From the IMG/VR virus record IMGVR_UViG_3300036845_000136, positions 1 through 56,056 of that record: a stretch of DNA of 56,056 nt; one strand, written 5' to 3'. A program made the translations under genes and the position numbers. The number at the start of each line of letters is the position of its first letter. Positions within the stretch are counted from its first letter, which is position 1. Source of the stretch: a virus. Positions 10,832 through 26,522 of the stretch are shown in pieces. The notes under the pieces were generated by a model. The model worked only from the letters and a program-made list of their open reading frames with translations, was not told where the DNA came from and did no database searches.

Positions 10832-12130
10832 GTGGCAGCAGAGGAAAAAATAGGGACATCAGGCGCGTGGCCGGCAGATCACGTGGAACGCCGCCCGCTG
10901 GCAGAGTTGATCGCCTACGCCCGCAACGCCCGCACCCACAGCGAAGGTCAGGTCGCGCAGATCGCCAAATCGATCACCGAGTTCGGTTTCGCGACGCCGG
11001 TGCTGATCGACCCCGACGGGACCATCATCGCCGGCCACGGCCGCGTCCTCGCAGCAGGACGCCTCGGCCTCACCACAGTCCCCGTCATGGTCGCCGACGG
11101 TTGGAGCGCCGCGCAGATCAAAGCCTACCGCATCGCCGATAACCAGTTGGCGCTGAACGCCGGCTGGGACCTGTCGTTGCTGCGGGGCGAGTTCATGGAC
11201 CTGCAAGCCTCGGGCTTCGATCTGGAGTTCACCGGCTTCGCCGCCGCCGCGGCCGAGGCGATGATCGCCGACACCGGCGGCAGGACCGAGCCGGACGACG
11301 TGCCGGAGCCGCCAGAGGTCCCACGCACGCGCCCAGGCGACGTGTGGCAGCTTGGCCGGCATCGGCTGATCTGCGGTGATGCCACCGACCCCGAGGCCGT
11401 GCAGCGCGTCCTGGCGGGCGCCACGCCGCAGCTTCTCGTGACCGACCCGCCCTACGGCGTGGCCTATGATGGCAAGTGGCGCGACAAGGGACCGCGGCAG
11501 GCGCCCGGCAAGAGCAAAGTGGCCTACGTGCCGGGCGACGGGCAGAGCGACTGGTCAGCCGCCTGGGCACACTATCAGGGCGACGTCGCCTATATCTGGA
11601 GCAGCCCACTCAAGCTCGAGGTACCGCAACACCTGCTCGCCGCCGGCTTCGAGATCAGATCGCAGATCGTCTGGCGCAAGCATCAACCGATCTTCGGTCG
11701 CGGCCACTACCACTGGCAGCATGAATGTTGCTGGTACGCCGTGCGCAAGGGCAGCACAGGACACTGGCAGGGCGACCGCAAGCAGAGCACGGTGTGGGAC
11801 ATCACCACCGCCTCGGGCTTCCATGCCGGTGTGGTCGAGGCCGCCACCACGCACGGCACGCAGAAGCCGGTGGAGTGCATGCGCAAGCCGATGGAGAACA
11901 ACTCGGCCGTCGGCGATTGGGTGTATGATCCCTTCCTCGGATCGGGGACCAGCGTTATCGCCGCGCAGATGGCCGGCCGCTGCTGCGCCGCAATCGAGCT
12001 AAACCCGGCATATTGCGATCAGGCGATCACCCGCTGGCAGGAGTTCGTCGGCGCCGAGGCGGTCCTCGAGGCCACCGGCGAGAAGTTCGATGCCGTGCGC
12101 GTGGTGCCAGAACTGGCCTTGGGTAGGTGA
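10832..12130 (+). CDS. ParB-like domain fused to DNA methyltransferase
   Basis: 432 residues, GTG 10832 with AGAGGAA upstream. N-terminal ParB/sulfiredoxin-like domain (about 17-110) with IIAGHGRVLAAGRLGL and RIADNQLALNAGWD. C-terminal methyltransferase with DPPYGVAY (205-212, motif IV) before DPFLGSGT (366-373, the SAM-binding motif I), the motif order of beta-class N6-adenine or N4-cytosine enzymes. Such fusions are common in phages, where they modify phage DNA, possibly against restriction. Target sequence unknown. It precedes the terminase genes. Confidence 0.85.
   Translation: MAAEEKIGTSGAWPADHVERRPLAELIAYARNARTHSEGQVAQIAKSITEFGFATPVLIDPDGTIIAGHGRVLAAGRLGLTTVPVMVADGWSAAQIKAYRIADNQLALNAGWDLSLLRGEFMDLQASGFDLEFTGFAAAAAEAMIADTGGRTEPDDVPEPPEVPRTRPGDVWQLGRHRLICGDATDPEAVQRVLAGATPQLLVTDPPYGVAYDGKWRDKGPRQAPGKSKVAYVPGDGQSDWSAAWAHYQGDVAYIWSSPLKLEVPQHLLAAGFEIRSQIVWRKHQPIFGRGHYHWQHECCWYAVRKGSTGHWQGDRKQSTVWDITTASGFHAGVVEAATTHGTQKPVECMRKPMENNSAVGDWVYDPFLGSGTSVIAAQMAGRCCAAIELNPAYCDQAITRWQEFVGAEAVLEATGEKFDAVRVVPELALGR
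10843..10860 (+). promoter_or_regulatory. Second operator copy inside the start of the methyltransferase gene
   Basis: Exact copy of the 18-bp element, 45 bp from the copy in the leftward promoter. It encodes residues 5-10 of the ParB/methyltransferase protein. Occupancy here could affect both divergent transcription units (inference). Confidence 0.6.
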
Positions 12131-12133
12131 GTG

Positions 12134-12574
12134 ATGGGAGCCGTAGCGAAGCGATCGGTTGCACGCCGCTTGCAGTTCTGCCGCGTGATCGCCTCCGGCG
12201 GCAGCGTGCGGACAGCGTGTCGCGTCATCGATATGGCCCGCCAAGCGGTCTACGCGTGGCGGGATGCTGATCCCATCTTCGCCAAGATGTGGGACGAAGC
12301 CTACGAAGATCACACCGACCTCTATGAGGAGGTCATCAGCAAGGCCGCCGCTCGTGGCAGCCTGTACGCTGCCCTTGCCGCGCTGCGCGCCCGCCGGCCG
12401 GGAGTGTGGGCAAAATCAGCCTCGTCCACTGAGGGCGACGTCGTCGAGGCTCTGGCGATCGCGCATGCGAGCAGCAACGCCGAGGCGCCCAAGGTATTCC
12501 TGATGCCGACCGATGCCGTGTCCGATAACGAACCCGATGAGCCACTGACAATCGAGGGCGAGCAGGCCGCATGA
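12134..12574 (+). CDS. Terminase small subunit
   Basis: 146 residues from ATG 12134 (GTG 12131 is also possible). It binds phage DNA for packaging. An HTH-like segment (VRTACRVIDMARQAVYAWRD) is followed by FAKMWDEAYEDHTDLYEEVI, the layout of Terminase_1-type small subunits, and an acidic tail. The stop overlaps the large-subunit ATG (ATGATG). Confidence 0.75.
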   Translation: MGAVAKRSVARRLQFCRVIASGGSVRTACRVIDMARQAVYAWRDADPIFAKMWDEAYEDHTDLYEEVISKAAARGSLYAALAALRARRPGVWAKSASSTEGDVVEALAIAHASSNAEAPKVFLMPTDAVSDNEPDEPLTIEGEQAA

Positions 12575-14019
12575 TGCAGGTCGGCCGGCCGCGCGAAGGC
12601 GTCGACATCTATCCGCAAGCCGGGCCGCAGCAGACCTTCGGACGTACCGGGGCCGAGATCGCCGTGTTCGGCGGCAGTGCCGGGAGCGGCAAGACCTACG
12701 CCTTGTTGCTGGAGGCAATGCGCCATCCGCCGCACGTTACCGGCTTCGACGCGGTGATGTTCCGCCGCACCACGGTCGATATCCGCAAGCCCGGCGGTCT
12801 CTGGCCGGAATCACTCCGCGTCTTCCCCCACGCCGGCGGTGTGCCGATCAGCCACACGCTGGAATGGCGCTGGCCCGGCAAGGGCTCGATCAAGATGGCG
12901 CATCTCGAGCACGAGAACACAGTGTATGACTGGCATGGTAGTCAGGTTCCGTTGATTTGTTGGGATGAACTCCAAACTTTTACTAAGTCTCAGTTTTTCT
13001 ACATGCTGAGCCGCAATAGAAGTTCCACCGGCATACAGTCATGGATGCGCGCTACCTGCAACGCCGATGCGTCCTCATGGCTCGCTGAGTTCCTGTCCTG
13101 GTACTGGGACCCGCTGACTGGCTATCCGATTCCTGAACGCTCCGGCGTGATCCGCTATTTCACTCGCGGACAGGACGACAGCTTCCTGTGGTTCAACAGC
13201 AAGCGCGAAGCGGTGCGGGCCACCGGTCAGCCGCCCGAGACGGTCAAGAGTTTCACCTTCGTTGCCGCCAAGCTCGCCGACAACCCGGCACTGATGCGTT
13301 CAGACCCATCGTATTTGGGTAATTTGATGCTCCTGCCGCAGGTCGAGCGGGAACGACTGCTGAACGGCAACTGGAAGATCATTCCTTCCGCCGGGCTCTA
13401 CTTCAATCGCTCGTGGTGTCAGGTGATCGACATTGCGCCGATGTGCACCAAGATCGTGCGCGGCTGGGATCTGGCCTCGTCGGAGCCGAAAGACAGTTCC
13501 GATCCCGACTGGACGGCGTGCACCAAGATCGGTGTGATGCAGGACGGCCGCTGGATTGTGCTGCACCACGATGCCTTCCGTGGCAGCCCTGCCGAGGTCG
13601 AGCGCCGGGTGGTGAACTACTCTGCGATGGATGGCTACGATTGCATCGTCAGCCTGCCACAGGACCCTGGACAGGCCGGCAAATACCAAGTGGCGGCAAT
13701 GACCAGGGCGCTCGCCGGCTATCGCGTGGAGAGTTCACCGGAGAGTGGCGACAAGGTGACGCGGTTCGGACCGTTCAGCGCGCAGGCCGAGGTCGGCAAC
13801 GTGCTGGTCCTACGCGGCCAGTGGAACGAACGGTTCGTGTCGCAGCTTGAGAACTTTCCCGAGGGCGCGCACGACGACGATGCCGACAGCGTCAGCCGCG
13901 CCTATAACGCGATCGCGCAGAATCCGCCGATGCGCTTCGATCCGGATGAATTGCGCAAGCTCGGCATCCACATGCCGGGCGATATGACGGGGATGCTGCT
14001 GCCGCCAATGCGTCGCTGA
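12571..14019 (+). CDS. terL: Terminase large subunit (ATPase/nuclease)
   Basis: 482 residues. DNA-packaging motor. Walker A GGSAGSGKT (34-42), arginine-finger region MFRRTTVDIRK, Walker B LICWDELQ (128-135), then an RNase-H-type nuclease with RGWDLASS (D300), D313 in DPDWT and DDDADS near the C-terminus. Codon use in 12930-13030, around Walker B, is visibly richer in A and T than the rest. Confidence 0.9.
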   Translation: MMQVGRPREGVDIYPQAGPQQTFGRTGAEIAVFGGSAGSGKTYALLLEAMRHPPHVTGFDAVMFRRTTVDIRKPGGLWPESLRVFPHAGGVPISHTLEWRWPGKGSIKMAHLEHENTVYDWHGSQVPLICWDELQTFTKSQFFYMLSRNRSSTGIQSWMRATCNADASSWLAEFLSWYWDPLTGYPIPERSGVIRYFTRGQDDSFLWFNSKREAVRATGQPPETVKSFTFVAAKLADNPALMRSDPSYLGNLMLLPQVERERLLNGNWKIIPSAGLYFNRSWCQVIDIAPMCTKIVRGWDLASSEPKDSSDPDWTACTKIGVMQDGRWIVLHHDAFRGSPAEVERRVVNYSAMDGYDCIVSLPQDPGQAGKYQVAAMTRALAGYRVESSPESGDKVTRFGPFSAQAEVGNVLVLRGQWNERFVSQLENFPEGAHDDDADSVSRAYNAIAQNPPMRFDPDELRKLGIHMPGDMTGMLLPPMRR

Positions 14020-14030
14020 AGGGAGGGGTC

Positions 14031-17000
14031 ATGTCGCTGCTGACCGCTCTCGCCGGCTTCGCCGGGCTCCTGGCGCGCGACGCGGCGCCTGAGCCGCCAC
14101 CGCCTCCACCGCCTGCCCCGCCGCAGATCGACGCCCAGGCGCTCTACAACGCGCTGCTGAGCACCGGCATGGTCGGCCAGCAGACCACGCCGTTCCAACT
14201 CTACTCGACCCGCCCCGTGGACGCTGGTGACATGGCGCGCATCTTCGCGCCGGCCAAGCCGATGCGTGGCGTCGTGCCTGATGGCGTCATCCCGATGGCG
14301 ATGGACGACCTCAACAACCCCATGTCGCTCTACGGTGGCTATCAGGGCATCACCGAGGGCATGGCGTGGCTCGGCTATCCCTATCTGGCCGAGCTGGCGC
14401 AGCGCACCGAATACCGGCGCATGTCAGAGACCATCGCCAAGGAAATGACGCGACGGTGGTTCAAGCTGATCGCGACCGGCGATGACGACAAGACCGACAA
14501 GATCACCGCGCTCGAAGCCTGTATGCGCGAGCATAAGCTGCAAGAGAAATTCGCGCTGCTCGCCCTGCTCGACGGCTTCTTCGGCCGCGCGCACCTCTAC
14601 ATCGATACCGGTGTCGGCGATGATCTGGATCAGATGAAGTTACCGCTGCTGATCGATCCGAGGGTGATCGGCAAGAACGGGCTAAAGGCACTGCGGGTCA
14701 TCGAGCCGATGTGGTGCTACGCTAACCGCTACAACGCCAACGATCCGCTGCGCAGCGACTTCTACCTGCCGCAGTCGTGGTATGTGATGGGCAAGGAAAT
14801 CCATCGCACCCGCATCCTGCCGTTCATCTCGCGCGAAATGCCCGACATGCTGAAGCCGGCATACAGCTTCGGCGGCCTTTCGCTGAGCCAGATGGCCAAG
14901 CCCTACGTCGACAACTGGCTGCGCACTCGCCAATCGGTGTCCGATCTGGTGCACAGCTTCTCGACGCCCGTGCTGATGACCAACATGGGCAGCGTCATGA
15001 ATGCCGGCGCCAGTCAGGCACTGCAAATGCGTGCCGCGCTGTTCAACTACCTACGCGACAACAACAATATGATGGTGGTCGATAAGACCACCGAGGACTT
15101 CAAGAACGTCGCGGCACCGCTCGGCTCGCTCGATCATCTGCAAGCGCAGAGCCAGGAGCACATATCGTCGGCAGTCGGGATACCCCTGGTGGTGCTGACC
15201 GGCATTTCGCCGTCAGGGCTTAATTCAAGCAGCGAATTTGAACTCCAGGTTTGGGCGCAGTGGATACACGCCAACCAGACCAGCTTCTTCGATGCGAATC
15301 TGAAGCTGATCTTGGACGTGATGCAGCTCGACCAGTTCGGCGAAATTGACCCCGACATCTCGCACGCGTGGGAGCCCCTCGAGGAGCTATCGGAGGCGGA
15401 GAAGGCGACCGCCGACAAGACCAAGGCGGACACCGACGTTGCCTACATCAACGCCGGCGTGTTGTCCCCCGACGAGGTGCGACAGAACCTGTCCGGCGAG
15501 GCGGAGAGCCCCTATCCCGGCCTCGACCTGGAGGGCCCCGCGCCACCGCCGCCGCAGCAGGAGCAGGACCCGCTCGCTGGCGCCCCTGGCGGCGATCCAG
15601 AAGGCGGCGGCGCACCTCCCGGCCCGGGTGGCCCTGGCGGTCCTCCCGGCACCGCAGGCGGCCCCGCAGGCGGCCGGCCGAACCCGATCAAGCCCACACC
15701 GCCGCGGGAGGTCGAGGCCGGTGGCTCGCCCGCCGCGACCAAGCCGAATGCCAGCCGTGATGAGGGTGGCAGCCGCGAGGTCGAGCACACCGCGATCAAG
15801 ATCGGCGAGAACGACAACGCCCAGGTGCACCTGAAGCCGCACGATGAACTGCACATCAAGATGGCGGCCGACGGCAGCCTGATCCTGTCAGGGGCTCGGC
15901 GTGACGCCCCTTTCGGCCAGGACGCTGAGTTCGAGGAGAGCAACGTCAAGCGGGACCAGAGCGGCAAGTTCGCCAAGAGCCGCACTTACAGCAAGACCAA
16001 CCCGCCGCAATCGAGCCATCTGCATGACGTCGAGTTCAAGTCATGGGACGCGCCAAAGGATAGTGCTGGGTGGAAGAAAGAAGCCGAGACCACACCGCAT
16101 TTCGAAGAGCCCGAGATGCCAGCCACGGGCGGCAAGAAACAGGGCGCCGGCGTGATCGTCCAGGAGCCCGACGGCCGGGTGTGGGTGATCCATCCGACCA
16201 ACCAATACGGCGGCTACTCCGGCACTTTCCCCAAGGGCGGCGTCGATAAGGGCGACAGCCTCCATGCCACCGCGATCAAGGAAGCCTACGAGGAGTCTGG
16301 CCTGCATGTGCAGTTGACCGGCTATGCCGGCGACGCCAATCGAGGCACATCGGTCGCCCGCTACTACTACGCCAAGCGGATCGGCGGTACGCCGGCAGAT
16401 CACGGCTGGGAGTCGGAAGGCGTCACGCTCTCGCCCCCCGATGAACTGCATCATCACCTGAACACGCCGCTCGATCGCCGCATGGCGGTCGCGATGATCC
16501 CTGGCGCGCACAAGGAAAGCCCGATCGACACCGCCAAGATGGAGAAGACCGGCGGCAAGCTGGGTAGCAATCCGGGCGGCAAATACAAGGACAGCGACGG
16601 CAAGGAATACTACGTCAAGGACAGCAAATCAGACAGCCACGCCAAGAACGAGATACTGGCATCGCGGCTGTATGACGCGGCCGGGGCACCGGCGCTGCAT
16701 GTCATGCCGGCGACCACACCAGACGGAAAGCTCGGCACCGCCACCGAGTGGCAGAAGACCGAGAAGATCAATCCGAAGAGCGAGGCCGATCGCACCGCAG
16801 CGCAGAAACATTTCGCGGCCCATGCGTGGCTAGCGAACTGGGATGCACCCGGCCTGACGCATGACAATCAGGCGCGGATCGACGGCAAGATGACGACGCT
16901 CGATAGCGGTGGCGCGCTGCTGTATCGCGCGCAGGGCGGCGAAAAGGGCGACAAGTTCGGCGACGACGTCGGCGAATGGGACACGCTGCGCAGCCCGAGC

Positions 17001-19433
17001 AACAAGCAGGCGCATGACCTGTTCGGCAGCATGACGCCCGCACAGTTGCAGGAATCGGCCTCGCGCGTGGTGCGCATCCCGTCCTCGCATATCCGCAACG
17101 CGGTGAACCGCCTCGGCCCCGGCAGCAAGGAAGAGCGCGCGGCCCTGGCAGAGCGGCTGATCAAGCGGCGCAACGACATCGCGCAGCGTGCCGGCGGCGG
17201 TCTCCAGGCGGCCGACAGCGCCCTCGCCTGGGCGTTCGACGCGATGATCGGCGAGTGGGAAGAGGAAGCTCACCCGCGTGATGAGGGCGGCAAGTTCACC
17301 GCCGGCAGCGGCGCCGGGGAGAAGGCCGAGGCGCCAGCGCCACCGCCGCACCAGTTGCACGTCAAGGTGCCCGGCAACAAGATCAAGTCGCTCGCCGACT
17401 CGCTGCCGTTGTCGGCCGAGAAAGATCAGATCACCGAGGTCGCGGGTCAGATCAAAGACATCGCCGGCCAGTACAAGCACAGTGCGATTTCCACCTATGC
17501 CAATTCAGTCCTGGCACACCTGGAAAGCCAGCACGGGCTGAGCAGCGGCAACCTCGGCAAGGCCAAGAAGATGCCGACGGTGAAGGGCGAGAAGGCAGCG
17601 CCAGAGCCCGCAGCCGAGCCGAACCCGCTGGAAGGGTTCAAGCTGAATGAAGCCGAGCCCGCGTCAAAGCAACCCGACCACATCCCAGATCCCAATCCGA
17701 ACTCGCCGACTCAGTTGACCATCCATCAGGTCGGCACGGGTGAGAACACCGTCGAGAAGAAGATCGGCCTGATCACTGACATTGCCTCCGGACAAAGCGA
17801 TAAGGACCAGCAATATGCTTTAGCGTGGCTCTATCACCTGGAGCAGCTTCCGAAAGAGGAGGAGGAGCCGAGCGCGACCCACGGTCAGATCGATGACGTC
17901 GTCGCCAGCAACGATCCGCTCGATCAGAAGATCAAGGCCATCATCGATCTCGGTCTGACGGGCTCGCAACAAGATGCTGATTACGCCGATGAGCAGTTGG
18001 CGAACCTCAAGAAGTGGAACGCCACCGAATACGCCGAGATGGAGAAGGCTGCCAAGTCCCAGTCCTCCCCGGACCCCGGCAAGGAGATGGAGAACATCGG
18101 CTTTGCCGCGATGGAGGCCGCCAAGCTCGACCCGGTGGCACTGAAAGCGGCGATCGCCGATATCGAGGCGATGCCGTCCGCCAATGCCGAGGTGGACAAG
18201 TTTAAGGCCGGATGGCTGACGACGCTGCAACAGACCTGGACCGCCAAGAATCAGTCGCCGCCCGCCGCGCCCAAGATGCTCGACCCTGAAGAACAAATGC
18301 ACGCGGTCGCCGAAAGCGCGATGCCGCACGAGCAGAAGATCGCGCTGCTAGAGAAGGTTCTGGACAGCAAGACCGTCAGCAAGGAGCACAAGCAGATCGC
18401 GGAGACGCTGATCAAGGTGCTCGATAAGAAGCAGACCGCAGCCGCACCACCGCCCGCGCCGAAGCCGGTCCCGCCGCCGATCATGGAGAGCAGCGCGACC
18501 CAGACCTCTATGCACGAGATCGCCACCGGGACGGAAACCGACGCGCAGAAGGTCGCTTATCTCAAGGCCAGCACGAAGCTACAGGACCAGCTTGCCAAGA
18601 GCCCGACTGGCACCACGGCGCAGTACTATAACCAGCTTATGGAGGCGCTCGGCGGCGAGCCGTTGCCAGGGGTAGTGGCGCCGCAACCGAAGCCCCCACC
18701 GCCTCCACCGAAGCCCAGCGCCGCCCAGAAGGCCGCTGCCGAGGCACCCAAGACCGCCAAGCACGGCTCGCTGACCGCCCCGGCCAATGCCCAGGTGACC
18801 CAGGCCCGCAAGGGCGCGGCACTGAGCCATGCGCTGAAGCAAGAGGCCGACGCGGTCAGCCCAGCCAGCACCGACACCGCGGCCGCGCGTGAGGCGGTCC
18901 CGTCACTGCGGCCGGACTTCTGGGCCGAAGTCGGCAACAAGCACGATAATGAGGCCGTCGAATCCTACGGCGGCGGCGGCTACAGCAAGATCAACGGCGT
19001 GCTGCGCGGCAACAGTCCGATCACGGAAGACGCGCTGAAAAAGATCGACAGCATGGATGGTCTGATGAACGAGCCAGGGACCAGAACCGTCGGCGACAAG
19101 CCGGTCCGGCTGATCCGTGGCGAGGACATGGAGCCGGAGCAGATCAAGAAGATCAAGGATAACCTGGAGAAGGGCATCGGCACGGTGGCCTACCAGCGCA
19201 TGGGATACACCAGTGCCTCGATTGGCGAGAAGCCCGGCTACAAAGCGAGCGCCAACACCTACTGGCAGTTCACCGCCATGCCGGGTGCCAGGATGCTCGG
19301 TATTGCTGCCAGCCCGGCGCACGGCATCGGCCACGGCGAGCGCGAGGTGGTGCTGCCGAATGGCATCACGGTCGAGGTCTATGAGATGTATCACGACGGA
19401 AAACGCCACATAATCAAGGCGCTATACCGCTGA
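14031..19433 (+). CDS. Portal polyprotein: portal, NUDIX, kinase-like and ADP-ribosyltransferase
   Basis: 1800 residues, about three times a normal portal. Residues about 30-500 match DUF1073-type portals (WLGYPYLAELAQRTEYRR; VVLTGISPSGLNSSSEFEL). A Pro/Gly linker follows (500-565). A NUDIX domain (about 700-825) has its box at 736-758, G-x5-D-x7-KEAYEESGL: the first Glu is Asp, the Arg is Lys, the metal-binding EE is kept. A kinase-like HipA/PI-kinase-type segment (about 839-1055) shows YYVK (K863), E874, D938, THDNQ (943-947) and LDSGG (D958). Helical repeats and Pro linkers (1085-1570) lead to a C-terminal ADP-ribosyltransferase with R1696 (LIRG), S1728 (YTSAS) and E1770-R-E1772, the R-S-ExE signature. 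Linkers carry RDQSGKF and RDEGGKF motifs. ATG after GGGAGGGGTC. Whether it is cleaved is unknown; Mu gpF-type head proteins often carry an ADP-ribosyltransferase, portals rarely. Confidence 0.85.
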   Translation: MSLLTALAGFAGLLARDAAPEPPPPPPPAPPQIDAQALYNALLSTGMVGQQTTPFQLYSTRPVDAGDMARIFAPAKPMRGVVPDGVIPMAMDDLNNPMSLYGGYQGITEGMAWLGYPYLAELAQRTEYRRMSETIAKEMTRRWFKLIATGDDDKTDKITALEACMREHKLQEKFALLALLDGFFGRAHLYIDTGVGDDLDQMKLPLLIDPRVIGKNGLKALRVIEPMWCYANRYNANDPLRSDFYLPQSWYVMGKEIHRTRILPFISREMPDMLKPAYSFGGLSLSQMAKPYVDNWLRTRQSVSDLVHSFSTPVLMTNMGSVMNAGASQALQMRAALFNYLRDNNNMMVVDKTTEDFKNVAAPLGSLDHLQAQSQEHISSAVGIPLVVLTGISPSGLNSSSEFELQVWAQWIHANQTSFFDANLKLILDVMQLDQFGEIDPDISHAWEPLEELSEAEKATADKTKADTDVAYINAGVLSPDEVRQNLSGEAESPYPGLDLEGPAPPPPQQEQDPLAGAPGGDPEGGGAPPGPGGPGGPPGTAGGPAGGRPNPIKPTPPREVEAGGSPAATKPNASRDEGGSREVEHTAIKIGENDNAQVHLKPHDELHIKMAADGSLILSGARRDAPFGQDAEFEESNVKRDQSGKFAKSRTYSKTNPPQSSHLHDVEFKSWDAPKDSAGWKKEAETTPHFEEPEMPATGGKKQGAGVIVQEPDGRVWVIHPTNQYGGYSGTFPKGGVDKGDSLHATAIKEAYEESGLHVQLTGYAGDANRGTSVARYYYAKRIGGTPADHGWESEGVTLSPPDELHHHLNTPLDRRMAVAMIPGAHKESPIDTAKMEKTGGKLGSNPGGKYKDSDGKEYYVKDSKSDSHAKNEILASRLYDAAGAPALHVMPATTPDGKLGTATEWQKTEKINPKSEADRTAAQKHFAAHAWLANWDAPGLTHDNQARIDGKMTTLDSGGALLYRAQGGEKGDKFGDDVGEWDTLRSPSNKQAHDLFGSMTPAQLQESASRVVRIPSSHIRNAVNRLGPGSKEERAALAERLIKRRNDIAQRAGGGLQAADSALAWAFDAMIGEWEEEAHPRDEGGKFTAGSGAGEKAEAPAPPPHQLHVKVPGNKIKSLADSLPLSAEKDQITEVAGQIKDIAGQYKHSAISTYANSVLAHLESQHGLSSGNLGKAKKMPTVKGEKAAPEPAAEPNPLEGFKLNEAEPASKQPDHIPDPNPNSPTQLTIHQVGTGENTVEKKIGLITDIASGQSDKDQQYALAWLYHLEQLPKEEEEPSATHGQIDDVVASNDPLDQKIKAIIDLGLTGSQQDADYADEQLANLKKWNATEYAEMEKAAKSQSSPDPGKEMENIGFAAMEAAKLDPVALKAAIADIEAMPSANAEVDKFKAGWLTTLQQTWTAKNQSPPAAPKMLDPEEQMHAVAESAMPHEQKIALLEKVLDSKTVSKEHKQIAETLIKVLDKKQTAAAPPPAPKPVPPPIMESSATQTSMHEIATGTETDAQKVAYLKASTKLQDQLAKSPTGTTAQYYNQLMEALGGEPLPGVVAPQPKPPPPPPKPSAAQKAAAEAPKTAKHGSLTAPANAQVTQARKGAALSHALKQEADAVSPASTDTAAAREAVPSLRPDFWAEVGNKHDNEAVESYGGGGYSKINGVLRGNSPITEDALKKIDSMDGLMNEPGTRTVGDKPVRLIRGEDMEPEQIKKIKDNLEKGIGTVAYQRMGYTSASIGEKPGYKASANTYWQFTAMPGARMLGIAASPAHGIGHGEREVVLPNGITVEVYEMYHDGKRHIIKALYR

Positions 19434-19910: not shown

Positions 19911-20423
19911 ATGGCTTATCGACTTATGCCAGACGCGGCATATCTGCGCGAATGCTTCAATTATGACCCAGAGACAGGCGCCTTGCGGTGGCTAATCCGG
20001 CCTGTGTCGCACTTCGAGAGTGAATATATAGCTGCGCGCATAAACACTCGTTATACCGGACAGCCGATCACCTCGACTGCCAAGGGCTATTTACGGGTGG
20101 CGGTGCAGGGGAAACGCTATCAGGTGCATCGCATCATCTGGAAGCTGATGACTGGCGACGAGCCGCCTGTGGTAATCGACCACATTGACAGGAACCGCAC
20201 AAACAACCGCTGGGGCAACTTGCGACCTGCGACCCTCAGGGAAAACCAGATGAACCGCGCACGTGTCCAAGGGGCGCGGGTGGGCGTATACTTTCGAAGG
20301 GGGAAGCCGTCGCCATGGGTCGCCACCATCCTGGTTGGCTGTTACTCGACAGCCGCTGAGGCTTCAGCAGCAAGGGCATTGGCGGTAGACTGTCTGCGAG
20401 CCGCCTCCCTTTGGAGGGACTAA
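19911..20423 (+). CDS. HNH homing endonuclease
   Basis: 170 residues. HNH core VHRIIWKLMTGDEPPVVIDH followed by IDRNRTNNRWGNLRPATLREN, as in HNH_3-type phage endonucleases, with a short C-terminal AP2-like remnant (WVATILVGCYSTAAEASAA). It probably nicks or cuts DNA lacking the insertion near this site. It lies between the portal and head-morphogenesis genes behind its own leader. Confidence 0.85.
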   Translation: MAYRLMPDAAYLRECFNYDPETGALRWLIRPVSHFESEYIAARINTRYTGQPITSTAKGYLRVAVQGKRYQVHRIIWKLMTGDEPPVVIDHIDRNRTNNRWGNLRPATLRENQMNRARVQGARVGVYFRRGKPSPWVATILVGCYSTAAEASAARALAVDCLRAASLWRD

Positions 20424-20468: not shown

Positions 20469-21299
20469 ATGCCGCCACCCGAGGGCATCAACTACATCGG
20501 CCGGGGCAGGGACAGGGTGCTGCCACCGGTCCACCCCAACGCCGGCATCGGCGTGGTCTACCGCACCCGCCTGCAACGCGCCGTCGCCGCGATGAACGCC
20601 AGCCTCGATTACTGGCTGTCCGCCCGCTGGGGCGAGGACAACCGAAGCGCCAACCGCATCATCGCCACCATGAAGGAACTCGGTCGGCGCTGGCAGTCCA
20701 ACTTCGACGAACTCGCCCCCGACGTCGCCGGCCAGTTCGGTGCCCGCTCGGTGCAATACACTACCAACCGGATGGAACAGCTTCTCGACGACGCCGGCTG
20801 GTCCGTCGAGTTCAAGGTCAGCCCGGCGATCAATGTCATCATGCGCTCGGCCGTGACGGAGAACGTCGGGCTGATCCGCTCGATCGCCAGCCAGCACCTC
20901 CAGAAGGTCGAGGGGATCGTGATGCGCGGCGTGCAGGCCGGCAACGACCTGAAGACCATGACCAAGGCGCTGCATGAAGAGTTCGACGTGCCGAAGAAAC
21001 GTGCCGCTTTCATCGCGCTGGATCAAACTAAAAAGCTGAACTCGGTCATCACCAAGGCCCGACAGGATCAGGCCGGAATCAAGCGCGCCGTTTGGATGCA
21101 CGCGAATATTACGACCCCGGGACATTTTCGGCCGGAGCATCTGGCGTTCTCTCGCGGCACGCACGCCGACGGCCCGAGCGGCAAGGGGCCGGTCTACGAG
21201 GTGGCGCAGGGGGCGTATCTTGAGGGCAAGTGGACGTACCCCGGCTTCGAGATCAATTGCCGATGCAGCAGTCGTCCGGTGATTGAGGGCTTTGAATAA
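20469..21299 (+). CDS. Head morphogenesis protein (Mu gpF-like)
   Basis: 276 residues from ATG 20469. The C-terminal part has the Mu F-like hallmark DQTKKLNSVITKARQDQAGI, then HAD-type spacing to SGKGPVYEV and the ending YPGFEINCRCSSRPVI. These minor head proteins sit with the portal and help procapsid assembly. No ADP-ribosyltransferase extension is present here; that module is on the portal instead. Confidence 0.8.
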   Translation: MPPPEGINYIGRGRDRVLPPVHPNAGIGVVYRTRLQRAVAAMNASLDYWLSARWGEDNRSANRIIATMKELGRRWQSNFDELAPDVAGQFGARSVQYTTNRMEQLLDDAGWSVEFKVSPAINVIMRSAVTENVGLIRSIASQHLQKVEGIVMRGVQAGNDLKTMTKALHEEFDVPKKRAAFIALDQTKKLNSVITKARQDQAGIKRAVWMHANITTPGHFRPEHLAFSRGTHADGPSGKGPVYEVAQGAYLEGKWTYPGFEINCRCSSRPVIEGFE

Positions 21300-23410: not shown

Positions 23411-24871
23411 ATGCCATTCGATACGCTTTGGCTGGCGCTGGACAAGTCCGTGCGCCGTTACGATGAGGACGGCCGTCTGCACGTCGCAGTCAGCCACCTG
23501 ACAAAAGCAGCGGTCAACCCTTATAGGGGCTCCGAGATACCCGGATGGCAAGAACTCGGGCTTGATCCGGATCGTATCTACAACCTGCTCCGCGATCCGG
23601 GCGAACTCGAGAAAGCTGTTCCCACCTTCAACAACATCCAGCTTCTCGATCAGCACATCCCGGTCACGGCCGCCGATGCGCAGCAACCGCGCGTGGTCGG
23701 ATCGACCGGAACCAACGCCACGTGGAACCCGCCGTACATCGACAATAGCTTGGTTTTCTGGACCGACGCCGCCAAGGCGATGATCGAGACCGGAGCGCAA
23801 CGCGAACTGAGCGCGGCCTATCGCTACGACCCGGTGATGACGCCCGGCACCTATCTCGGGAAATCTTACGATGGGGTGATGAAAAACATCAGAGCGAACC
23901 ACGTCGCTCTGGTCGAGGCCGGGCGCGCCGGCAGCGATGTCGTGGTGATGGATAGCAAATTAGAGGAGATGCCGATGCCGACGCTGGCTCTGTCACGGCG
24001 CGCCACCTACACGGCTGGCTCGCTGGCAGCTTACATCAAGCCGCTCCTGGCGAAAGACCAGAAGCTGCCTGATCTGCCCGCATTGCTGGCGGGTCTGACC
24101 GCGAAGAACTGGGACAAGCAGAAGCCAGTCATCGCCGCGAAGATCACCGACCTGCTCAAGGGCAAGCTCGCCACCGATGCGGAGATACACATCCACGAAC
24201 ACATGGATGGCGCGGGCGCCGAGGCCCCTGGTGATGACACGCCGCTGGCCGTAGAGGGCGCCGCCTCAGAGGGCAGCGAGGTCGATCCCGCAGAAGGCGC
24301 CGACCCCGACGCTGGCGCTGGCGATGATGATCTCGCCAACAAGGTGCAGCAGTTGCTGCAAGGCAAGATCGACGACAACGACCTCGCCATCATCCTGCAA
24401 GCTATCGCTGCGACGAAAAAGCCCGCCGAGGAAGATCCCGCAGCGGCAGCGGCGGCGGCCGGCCCGCCGAACGGCGAGGCCACCGACAACGCAGCAGATC
24501 TCCCCAAACCAGGATTGGCGAAAGGCCCAGCCATGGATGCGAAAATGGTCGACGCGCGTATCAAGAAGGCGATCGCCGAGACCCGCGAGAGCGAGCGCAG
24601 GGTCCGCGACGCCGAGAAGTTCGTCTTCAAATACGTGGGCAACGTGGTCGCTATGGACAGCGCCGAGGCTGTCTACAAGTTCGCCCTAGAAGCGATGGGC
24701 GAACAGAACATCGCCGACCTGCATCCGTCGGCCTATCGCGCGGTGCTGTCACGCATTCCGGTGCCGGGCAGCGAGCAAGCGCGGCCATCGCATCTCGCGA
24801 TGGATGCATCAGGCAACAAGTCATACCTGGAACGATTTCCTAATGCCAATCGCTTGCAGGCTAGGCACTGA
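23411..24871 (+). CDS. DUF2213 protease/scaffold-type capsid protein
   Basis: 486 residues. The first 190 match DUF2213: VSHLTKAAVNPYRGSEIPGW, ELSAAYRYDPVMTPGTYLG and IRANHVALVEAGRAGSDVVV. This is regarded as a prohead protease-like domain. The acidic Ala/Asp/Glu-rich middle and helical C-terminus (AMDAKMVDARIKKAIAET) fit an internal scaffold. It lies directly upstream of cement and major capsid genes. Confidence 0.8.
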   Translation: MPFDTLWLALDKSVRRYDEDGRLHVAVSHLTKAAVNPYRGSEIPGWQELGLDPDRIYNLLRDPGELEKAVPTFNNIQLLDQHIPVTAADAQQPRVVGSTGTNATWNPPYIDNSLVFWTDAAKAMIETGAQRELSAAYRYDPVMTPGTYLGKSYDGVMKNIRANHVALVEAGRAGSDVVVMDSKLEEMPMPTLALSRRATYTAGSLAAYIKPLLAKDQKLPDLPALLAGLTAKNWDKQKPVIAAKITDLLKGKLATDAEIHIHEHMDGAGAEAPGDDTPLAVEGAASEGSEVDPAEGADPDAGAGDDDLANKVQQLLQGKIDDNDLAIILQAIAATKKPAEEDPAAAAAAAGPPNGEATDNAADLPKPGLAKGPAMDAKMVDARIKKAIAETRESERRVRDAEKFVFKYVGNVVAMDSAEAVYKFALEAMGEQNIADLHPSAYRAVLSRIPVPGSEQARPSHLAMDASGNKSYLERFPNANRLQARH

Positions 24872-24885
24872 AGGGAGCAACGCAC

Positions 24886-25395
24886 ATGCCATTCCAGACC
24901 TCTGTTTCAGTTACGCAAGCGCCTGCCGTGGAGGGCGACTTCGCTTCGGAAAATCCGCGTTGGGCCGTGCCCTCGGTCGAGGGTGGCTTCAAAGCCGGTG
25001 CTGGCGGTGTGACGGTCGCGCGCTTCGCCTGGGCTGATGTCGCGACCAACACGCTGTTGCTGAACGCAGGCAGCGGCGCTCCGACCGGCTTCGTGCATCG
25101 CAACATGATGGGGCTGAACTTCAACTACTTCAGCAGCCCCGACTCAACGACGTTCGTCATCCCGCAGGGCTTCGGCTGTGGCGAGATATTCAGCGGCGGT
25201 GACTTCTGGGTGCGCAACACCGGCGCGGGCGCGGCAGCAGTCGGTATGAAAGCGTTCGCCAGCCTGACCACTGGTCAGGTGCAGTTCGCTGCGGCTGGCG
25301 CGACCGTCTCTGGCTATGTCGAGACCAAGTGGTGGTGCGAAGCACCCTGTCTCGCTGGCGAATTGACGAAGATGTCCAGCCAGCCGCTGGGCTGA
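24886..25395 (+). CDS. Capsid cement/decoration protein
   Basis: 169 residues, ATG 24886. N-terminal SVSVTQAPAVEGDFASENPR and a C-terminal beta-rich GATVSGYVETKWW match the structural cement family found immediately upstream of DUF2184-type capsid genes. It probably binds between hexamers on the outer shell. Confidence 0.75.
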   Translation: MPFQTSVSVTQAPAVEGDFASENPRWAVPSVEGGFKAGAGGVTVARFAWADVATNTLLLNAGSGAPTGFVHRNMMGLNFNYFSSPDSTTFVIPQGFGCGEIFSGGDFWVRNTGAGAAAVGMKAFASLTTGQVQFAAAGATVSGYVETKWWCEAPCLAGELTKMSSQPLG

Positions 25396-25463
25396 TCCAA
25401 CCCCTCAAACCACGAATATCCCCGAGCCGTCCAGCAACCCCTTGGGGCCGAGACAGGAGAACT
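25396..25463 (+). other. Gap before the capsid gene with CCCC/GGGG pairing
   Basis: 68-base gap containing CCCCTTGGGG and a second CCCC run that can pair with the same GGGG, then AGGAGAACT as ribosome-binding site for the capsid gene. It might be a processing or stability element; no U-tract. Confidence 0.3.
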
Positions 25464-26522
25464 ATGATGCACCGCACTCCCGAATTTGCGCGTGATGCCG
25501 CTCGCCTGGAGAGGGAGTGGGGCATCGTTATGCCGTATGCCATGGACTACATGCCGGCAGACTTGCAGATGCCACCCGGCATGGCAGCCGATGCGCAGCC
25601 GCCATTGCTGACCACGCCGAACGCCGGCATTCCCGGGTTCTTCACCCAGCTTGTTGACAGCGAGGTGGTGCGCATCCTGCAAGCCCCGAACAAGGGCAGC
25701 GAAATCCTCGGCGAGCAGAAGAAGGGCTCGTGGGTCGATCAGACCATCTTCATCCCGGTGATCGAGAACACCGGCGAGGTCTCCACCTACGGAGACTACA
25801 ACACGCTCGGTCGCTCGGACGTCAACGAGATGTGGGAACAGCGGCAATCCTACCTGTTCCAGACCATCACCGAATACGGCGACCTTGAGGTCGAACGCGC
25901 TGGCGCTGCAAAGCTGCAATTGGTCAGCGAGAAGCAGCAGGCGGCTGCCAAGACGCTCGATAAGTTCCTCGACCTGACCTACCACTTCGGTATCTCGGGC
26001 CTGATGAACTACGGCCTGCTGAACGATCCGTCACTACCAGCGGCACTGACGCCGTCGACCAAGGCGGCGGGCGGCGTGAAGTGGGTCAATGCCGGCGTGG
26101 TGAATGCGACGGCGGCTGAAATCTACATGGACTTCCAGTCGATGTACAATCAGCTTGCCACGGTCTCGAACGGCTACATCACGCAGGATACCTCGTTCAA
26201 GATGGTGTATCCGAACACGGTGGCCGGGGCGCTGACCGCGATCAACAGCTTCGGCATCACCATCAAGGCGTTCATCAAGGAGAGCTTCCCGAACGTCGAG
26301 TTTGTCTCCGATCCGCGTTACGCGACCACCGGCGGCAACGTGGTGCAACTGATCGCCAAGGAGTTCGATGGCAACAACACCGGCTATTGCGGCTTCAATG
26401 AGAAGAGCCGCGATCATGCCATTGTTCGCAGCCTGTCGAGCTACGCGCAGAAGCGCACGGGCGGTACTTGGGGATGCGTGATCCGATACCCCTTAGCTTT
26501 CTCACAACTACTTGGTGTATAA
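25464..26522 (+). CDS. Major capsid protein (DUF2184-like)
   Basis: 352 residues from ATG 25464 (ACAGGAGAACT upstream); the frame extends upstream without a ribosome-binding site. Features of the DUF2184 capsid family: QPPLLTTPNAGIPGFFTQLV (45-64), SWVDQTIFIPVIENTGEVS, GDYNTLGRSDVN and a C-terminal RTGGTWGCVIRYPLAFSQL. The 3' 50 bases have unusually AT-rich codons and abut the endonuclease insertion. The motif at 45-64 recurs in the small protein at 30786. Confidence 0.85.
   Translation: MMHRTPEFARDAARLEREWGIVMPYAMDYMPADLQMPPGMAADAQPPLLTTPNAGIPGFFTQLVDSEVVRILQAPNKGSEILGEQKKGSWVDQTIFIPVIENTGEVSTYGDYNTLGRSDVNEMWEQRQSYLFQTITEYGDLEVERAGAAKLQLVSEKQQAAAKTLDKFLDLTYHFGISGLMNYGLLNDPSLPAALTPSTKAAGGVKWVNAGVVNATAAEIYMDFQSMYNQLATVSNGYITQDTSFKMVYPNTVAGALTAINSFGITIKAFIKESFPNVEFVSDPRYATTGGNVVQLIAKEFDGNNTGYCGFNEKSRDHAIVRSLSSYAQKRTGGTWGCVIRYPLAFSQLLGV

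Follow-up and report, generated by a model that had tools for sequence, protein, structure and literature searches.

Phage T4 Alt is injected into the host, where it ADP-ribosylates host proteins using NAD+. For effectors that include ADP-ribosyltransferase (ART) and NUDIX domains, fusion to portal or MuF proteins has been described and injection proposed (Iyer et al., 2017, PMC5512222; PMC9503650), and the same papers treat polyvalent proteins and virion-packaged ART/Nudix proteins as multi-enzyme polypeptides encoded in head gene blocks. A polyvalent kinase group is described there as lacking the C-terminal subdomain and as being found mostly in elements of the Verrucomicrobia-Chlamydia and Bacteroidetes (PMC5512222; PMC9503650). 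The locus described here lies in a window of 56,056 nucleotides (the whole stretch of DNA that was analysed, IMG/VR virus record IMGVR_UViG_3300036845_000136) and likewise places a multi-enzyme polypeptide in a head gene block. As with Alt, its ART is of the R-S-E class and is encoded with head genes, but Alt is a free packaged protein, whereas here the ART, linked to a NUDIX and a kinase domain, forms the C-terminus of a portal. ART and NUDIX effectors on portals are already known; what is noteworthy is the recurring trio of NUDIX, kinase and ART, together with its kinase, and the trio was found neither by literature search nor in the accessible passages of PMC5512222 and PMC9503650.

The open reading frame begins at an ATG with a GGAGG site directly 5' of it and runs for 1800 codons on the forward strand, uninterrupted as the first-pass annotation had reported, and every residue named in that annotation lies at its given position in the protein (Table 1). 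Expression from an internal start, or otherwise in parts, was rejected because none of the in-frame starts in the linker 3' of the portal is preceded by a Shine-Dalgarno-like site. With at least two distinct effector domains on one chain and a virion gene context, the product falls within the phage polyvalent proteins, and it is probably a portal-tethered polyvalent effector. The genes 3' of the fusion follow the order HNH endonuclease, MuF, DUF2213 protease, major capsid, DUF3383, tape measure and baseplate J; the presence of baseplate J and DUF3383 suggests that the phage has a contractile tail. Positions 10832-12130 of the window, which immediately precede the terminase genes, encode a ParB-like domain fused to a DNA methyltransferase.

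Table 1. Features of the portal fusion and its neighbourhood, in window coordinates.
Feature	Residues and landmarks	Position	Strand	Basis or remark
Terminase small subunit		12131..12574	+	immediately upstream of portal fusion
Terminase large subunit		12571..14019	+	immediately upstream of portal fusion
Whole ORF, portal-NUDIX-kinase-ART polyvalent protein	1800 aa	14031..19433	+	layout also in L021/L022
Portal domain	60-500	14208..15530	+	Phage_portal_3, PHROG 146, E217 portal matches
Pro/Gly-rich linker	500-612	15528..15866	+	sequence; G+C 71.5%
Motif RDQSGKF	641-647	15951..15971	+	sequence
NUDIX domain	703-816; box 736-758; E751, E754, E755	16137..16478	+	Pfam 5.4e-11
HipA/CtkA-like kinase	830-1061; K863, E874, D938, N946, D958	16518..17213	+	AF2 pLDDT 96.6
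Long linker region	1062-1571	17214..18743	+	helix-rich by eye; without Pfam match
Motif RDEGGKF	1083-1089	17277..17297	+	sequence
C3/VIP2-class ART	1572-1800; R1696, S1728, E1770, E1772	18744..19430	+	Pfam 3.1e-4; AF2; C3bot
HNH endonuclease		19911..20423		between portal fusion and MuF gene
MuF-type head morphogenesis protein	276 aa, without effector domain	20469..21299	+	PF04233 1e-8
Head maturation protease, DUF2213		23411..24871	+	
Major capsid protein		25329..26522	+	

The first 500 residues are shown by sequence comparison to make up a complete portal, which bears out the DUF1073-type portal proposed for the N-terminus. Phage_portal_3 (DUF1073) matches residues 117-469 at 6.7e-79 (265.6 bits against a cut-off of 33.8) and is covered from position 2 to 355 of its 357, PHROG 146 matches the region at 3e-107, and the E217 portal (8fvh), solved as 12 chains, aligns over almost its whole length (residues 12-395 of 433) to residues 112-501 of the fusion. 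Portals that are 47-55% identical and 519-550 aa long (L098-L104, L107, L108) carry no extension and no fused NUDIX, kinase or ART. The nearest portals, at 72-75% identity (L095:7791-13175, L096:6385-10779, L097:558-5942), have C-terminal extensions of ~950-1280 aa that contain no NUDIX, kinase or ART, DUF7178 in L096 being the one domain recognised, and a related portal in L105:7917-10031 and L106:2498-4612 bears a C-terminal histidine phosphatase domain instead (PF00300, 7.9e-29).

The NUDIX box expected at residues 736-758 lies in a domain that scores 43.1 bits against a Pfam cut-off of 21.1, with E751, E754 and E755 100% conserved in 45 sequences; the first Glu of the box is Asp742 in this protein. 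The best match among solved structures is an Ap4A hydrolase (0.0018), and an FPKGG stretch is conserved, within which PKG is invariant. Judged from these resemblances, the stretch and the hydrolase match point as much to dinucleoside polyphosphates as to NAD or ADP-ribose.

In the Pfam scan of the full-length protein the kinase segment had no match of its own, and Pfam HipA_C, absent from the window kinase, matches 19 of 69 relatives weakly (best 8.6e-5). AlphaFold2, supplied with an alignment of the window segment and 68 IMG/VR relatives, returned a model with a pLDDT of 96.6 that best matches Helicobacter pylori CtkA among solved structures (Z 15.3 over 213 residues), followed by CotH (13.2), LepB (11.5) and HipA/HipT (~10.9). 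K863, E874, D938, N946 and D958 are conserved in 69 of 69 sequences and D945 in 92%, so that the HipA/PI-kinase-like segment, for which K863, E874, D938, D945 and D958 had been singled out, is upheld by both fold and residue conservation, and the domain has the fold and the Lys/Glu/Asp/Asn/Asp set of HipA/CtkA/CotH-class kinases. The likeness to CtkA, HipA and CotH extends across the whole domain, but the window kinase is at most 15% identical to them, is without a HipA_C match and has an eight-residue spacing from D938 to N946. The model is also complete in its C-terminal helical lobe, the CtkA alignment reaching residue 230 of 232, in contrast to the published polyvalent kinase group as characterised in passages of PMC5512222 and PMC9503650. 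Neither PHROGs nor NCBIfam contains the family, and a literature search that included CtkA-type phage kinases found no description of it. A scan of IMG/VR with the kinase alignment returned 462 relatives; viral contigs scanned with the whole 1800-residue protein gave no match. A protein from Streptomyces, 2232 aa or longer (L007:1-6696), carries the kinase at its extreme C-terminus, the place where the toxin domain sits in polymorphic toxins.

At the C-terminus, Pfam ADPrib_exo_Tox matches residues 1631-1788 at 3.1e-4 and 20.6 bits, slightly below its 23.4-bit cut-off, which relatives with the same layout pass, and the Alt-like PHROG 802 matches at 1.3e-5. The AlphaFold2 model, built from an alignment of the window segment and 44 relatives (pLDDT 87.4), matches C3bot at 5e-12 and then iota Ia, CDTa and VIP2. 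Fold and residues alike are those of the R-S-E class of C3, VIP2 and Alt, with R1696 (conserved in 91% of 45 sequences), S1728 within TSAS, and an ExE motif of E1770 (97%) and E1772 (100%), and the proposed R-S-ExE transferase is in place. Searching the phage collection by tblastn with the ART region alone gave nothing at 0.01, since ART sequences have diverged beyond its reach; with profile searches they were recovered. Two ART domains per chain occur in some ORFs (L048:3852-9293, L063:3-2594, L065:2-3388).

The three enzymatic identifications of the first-pass annotation therefore hold, by Pfam for the NUDIX domain, by fold models for the kinase and the ART, and by catalytic residues, and the objection that fold prediction might show no such folds falls away, the expected folds having been found for the kinase and ART segments. 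Because their catalytic residues are invariant or near-invariant, all three domains look catalytically competent. The helical repeats placed between kinase and ART were not confirmed, self-BLAST of residues 1061-1620 having revealed no internal repeats.

The linkers contain two copies of a motif, RDxxGKF, whose full form is roughly E(F/W)xExxHPRDxxGKFxxGGG. Related ORFs hold 34 distinct copies; 14.4 would be expected to fall inside mapped domains and none does, and the copies are nearer to domain edges than positions drawn at random from linkers are (median 53 versus 111 residues, p 0.001); the motif may mark processing or docking. A role as a general protease site of capsid proteins is unsupported, the motif being absent from the MCP, MuF and DUF2213 protease proteins of the window.

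The occurrence of the trio was followed in the best 80 of the 462 IMG/VR relatives of the kinase, which merge at 90% identity into 65 distinct loci; these were picked by similarity to the window kinase and are not a random sample, so the rates of co-occurrence are descriptive. An ART is present in the same ORF as the kinase at 36 of the 65 loci and a NUDIX domain at 31, and of the 35 loci that measure 14 kb or more an ART is found at 32, a NUDIX domain at 26 and both at 24, either fused or adjacent and in variable order. The kinase is fused to a portal of the window's family at 13 of the 65 loci, and portal fusions of ART and NUDIX are described in passages of PMC9503650 and PMC5512222, so that an ART on a portal is not the exception for which it had been taken. 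Fused orders include portal-NUDIX-kinase-ART, portal-kinase-NUDIX-ART, portal-kinase-ART and NUDIX-kinase-ART, and a kinase-ART protein with a separate NUDIX also occurs. The ~90-kb phages Dolphis, Mecenats66, fHe-Yen8-01, ST4 and phiT5282EW have this last arrangement, the NUDIX lying close by, and in fHe-Yen8-01 both proteins are annotated by the depositors as particle-associated. In a Pseudomonas juntendi phage-plasmid (L006) a single NUDIX-kinase-ART protein directly follows MuF, and the Gordonia phages Forza and Sixama encode portal, kinase and ART in separate nearby genes, in that order. The proteins of the phage-plasmid and of Dolphis, Mecenats66 and fHe-Yen8-01 are homologous to the window's (46-56% identity in the NUDIX, 39-46% in the kinase) and also have an ART, but they are without a portal fusion, and the 90-kb phages encode their NUDIX in a gene of its own close by. 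Attachment to the portal must have changed six times or more across the kinase tree, and well-supported branches impose every one of these changes. That the trio is kept while order and carrier change argues for a shared function, and the many phages with all three enzymes among their head genes suggest that these form a standard set of tools carried into the host along with the viral DNA.

The kinase has relatives in cells as well. Scanning genome contigs with an alignment that had the Rhodobacter copy as its first row returned 161 relatives, the best 80 of which all adjoin or are fused to a PTP-type phosphatase; such PTP/DSP phosphatases fused or adjacent to the kinase were seen in nitrogen-fixing bacteria (L005:7260-8657, L110-L189). 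DraT, the nitrogenase ADP-ribosyltransferase, occurs in nitrogen fixers, and its family (PF07357) was detected in 30 of 30 tested PTP-kinase genomes (nifH above cut-off in 29 of the 30) and in 0 of 14 control genomes. Within the Rhodobacter capsulatus family, DraT is present in one of 120 genomes, the R. capsulatus centre genome itself; in the Methylomonas family it is present in 29 of 121 genomes, and the eight with the PTP-kinase all fall within these 29 (p 5e-6, uncorrected for kinship). Among the best 80 of the 161 cellular loci, draG and draT are nearby at 12 and draT alone at one; adjacency as a general rule is rejected on these 13 of 80, and the link to DraT therefore rests on co-occurrence in genomes. 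An alternative is that the cellular kinase is tied to nitrogen fixation in general, because DraT itself is found in nitrogen fixers. Host systems couple PTP-like phosphatases with ADP-ribosyl glycohydrolases, according to passages of PMC9503650, which makes it plausible that the kinase is tied to ADP-ribosylation in viruses and cells alike. More tentatively, the kinase could be a dedicated partner of ADP-ribosylation, accompanied in phages by ART and NUDIX and in diazotrophs by a PTP-type phosphatase and DraT/DraG, with ADP-ribose adducts, or the ART system itself, as possible targets of its phosphorylation. Such phosphorylation may, for example, shield viral ADP-ribosylation from removal by the host.

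The reading that we favour, and hold to be reasonably probable, is a virion-packaged set of three enzymes that revolves around ADP-ribosylation and is delivered as a whole at entry. Delivery in the virion has indirect support from the annotation of the fHe-Yen8-01 proteins as particle-associated and from the position of homologues in head gene blocks. At the vertex through which the DNA enters, the portal would hold ~12 copies, their extensions lying within the capsid. The linkers marked by (HP)RDxxGKF would allow these extensions to unfold or to be cleaved, possibly by the DUF2213 protease, whereupon the enzymes could exit with the DNA. After entry, the ART would modify proteins of the new host with NAD+, as T4 Alt does, the kinase would phosphorylate proteins or ADP-ribosylated products, the NUDIX domain would cleave nucleoside-diphosphate products, and takeover would be favoured or nucleotide-based defence blunted. 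The enzymes might instead form a counter-defence set, also co-delivered with the DNA, that destroys or diverts NAD-, ADP-ribose- or dinucleotide-type signals and for which modification of host proteins is secondary. The invariant PKG and the Ap4A hydrolase match would suit such a role, and phage Nudix domains have been argued to counter mainly ADPr-derived signals (passages of PMC9503650), but the ART has the fold of the protein-modifying C3, iota and VIP2 enzymes and also an ExE motif, and no NADase or cyclase signature was found, which leaves this a rather unlikely account.

That the extension acts in late infection or assembly of the producing cell and remains in the capsid would agree with the position of the ORF among late head genes, but the related portals of 519-550 aa argue that the extension is dispensable for portal function and the same kind of enzyme in T4 (Alt) is injected, so a purely internal role appears improbable. 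The chance that the ORF is an assembly artefact of joined genes, or a degenerate passenger with decayed domains, is negligible: its unusual length, and nothing else, speaks for this, whereas the frame is single and open, the catalytic residues are invariant and the fold models confident. The same portal-NUDIX-kinase-ART fusion is carried by independent contigs (L021/L022, L038/L039, and L027, which begins within the portal), and for that reason an assembly error, or the sequencing error joining separate genes that the first-pass annotation had allowed for, is excluded.

The analysis brings out a kinase family that is widespread in phages, so far unmodelled, and accompanies ART and NUDIX enzymes, and a portal that has itself repeatedly been used as an effector carrier. 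If the extension is delivered, about 12 copies of three signalling enzymes would enter per virion at once. Should the kinase prove to be a partner of ADP-ribosylation, the trio would represent a new kind of ADP-ribosylation machinery common to viruses and cells, and the link between kinase and DraT in diazotrophs offers a testable route to the substrate of the kinase through a well-studied regulatory system.
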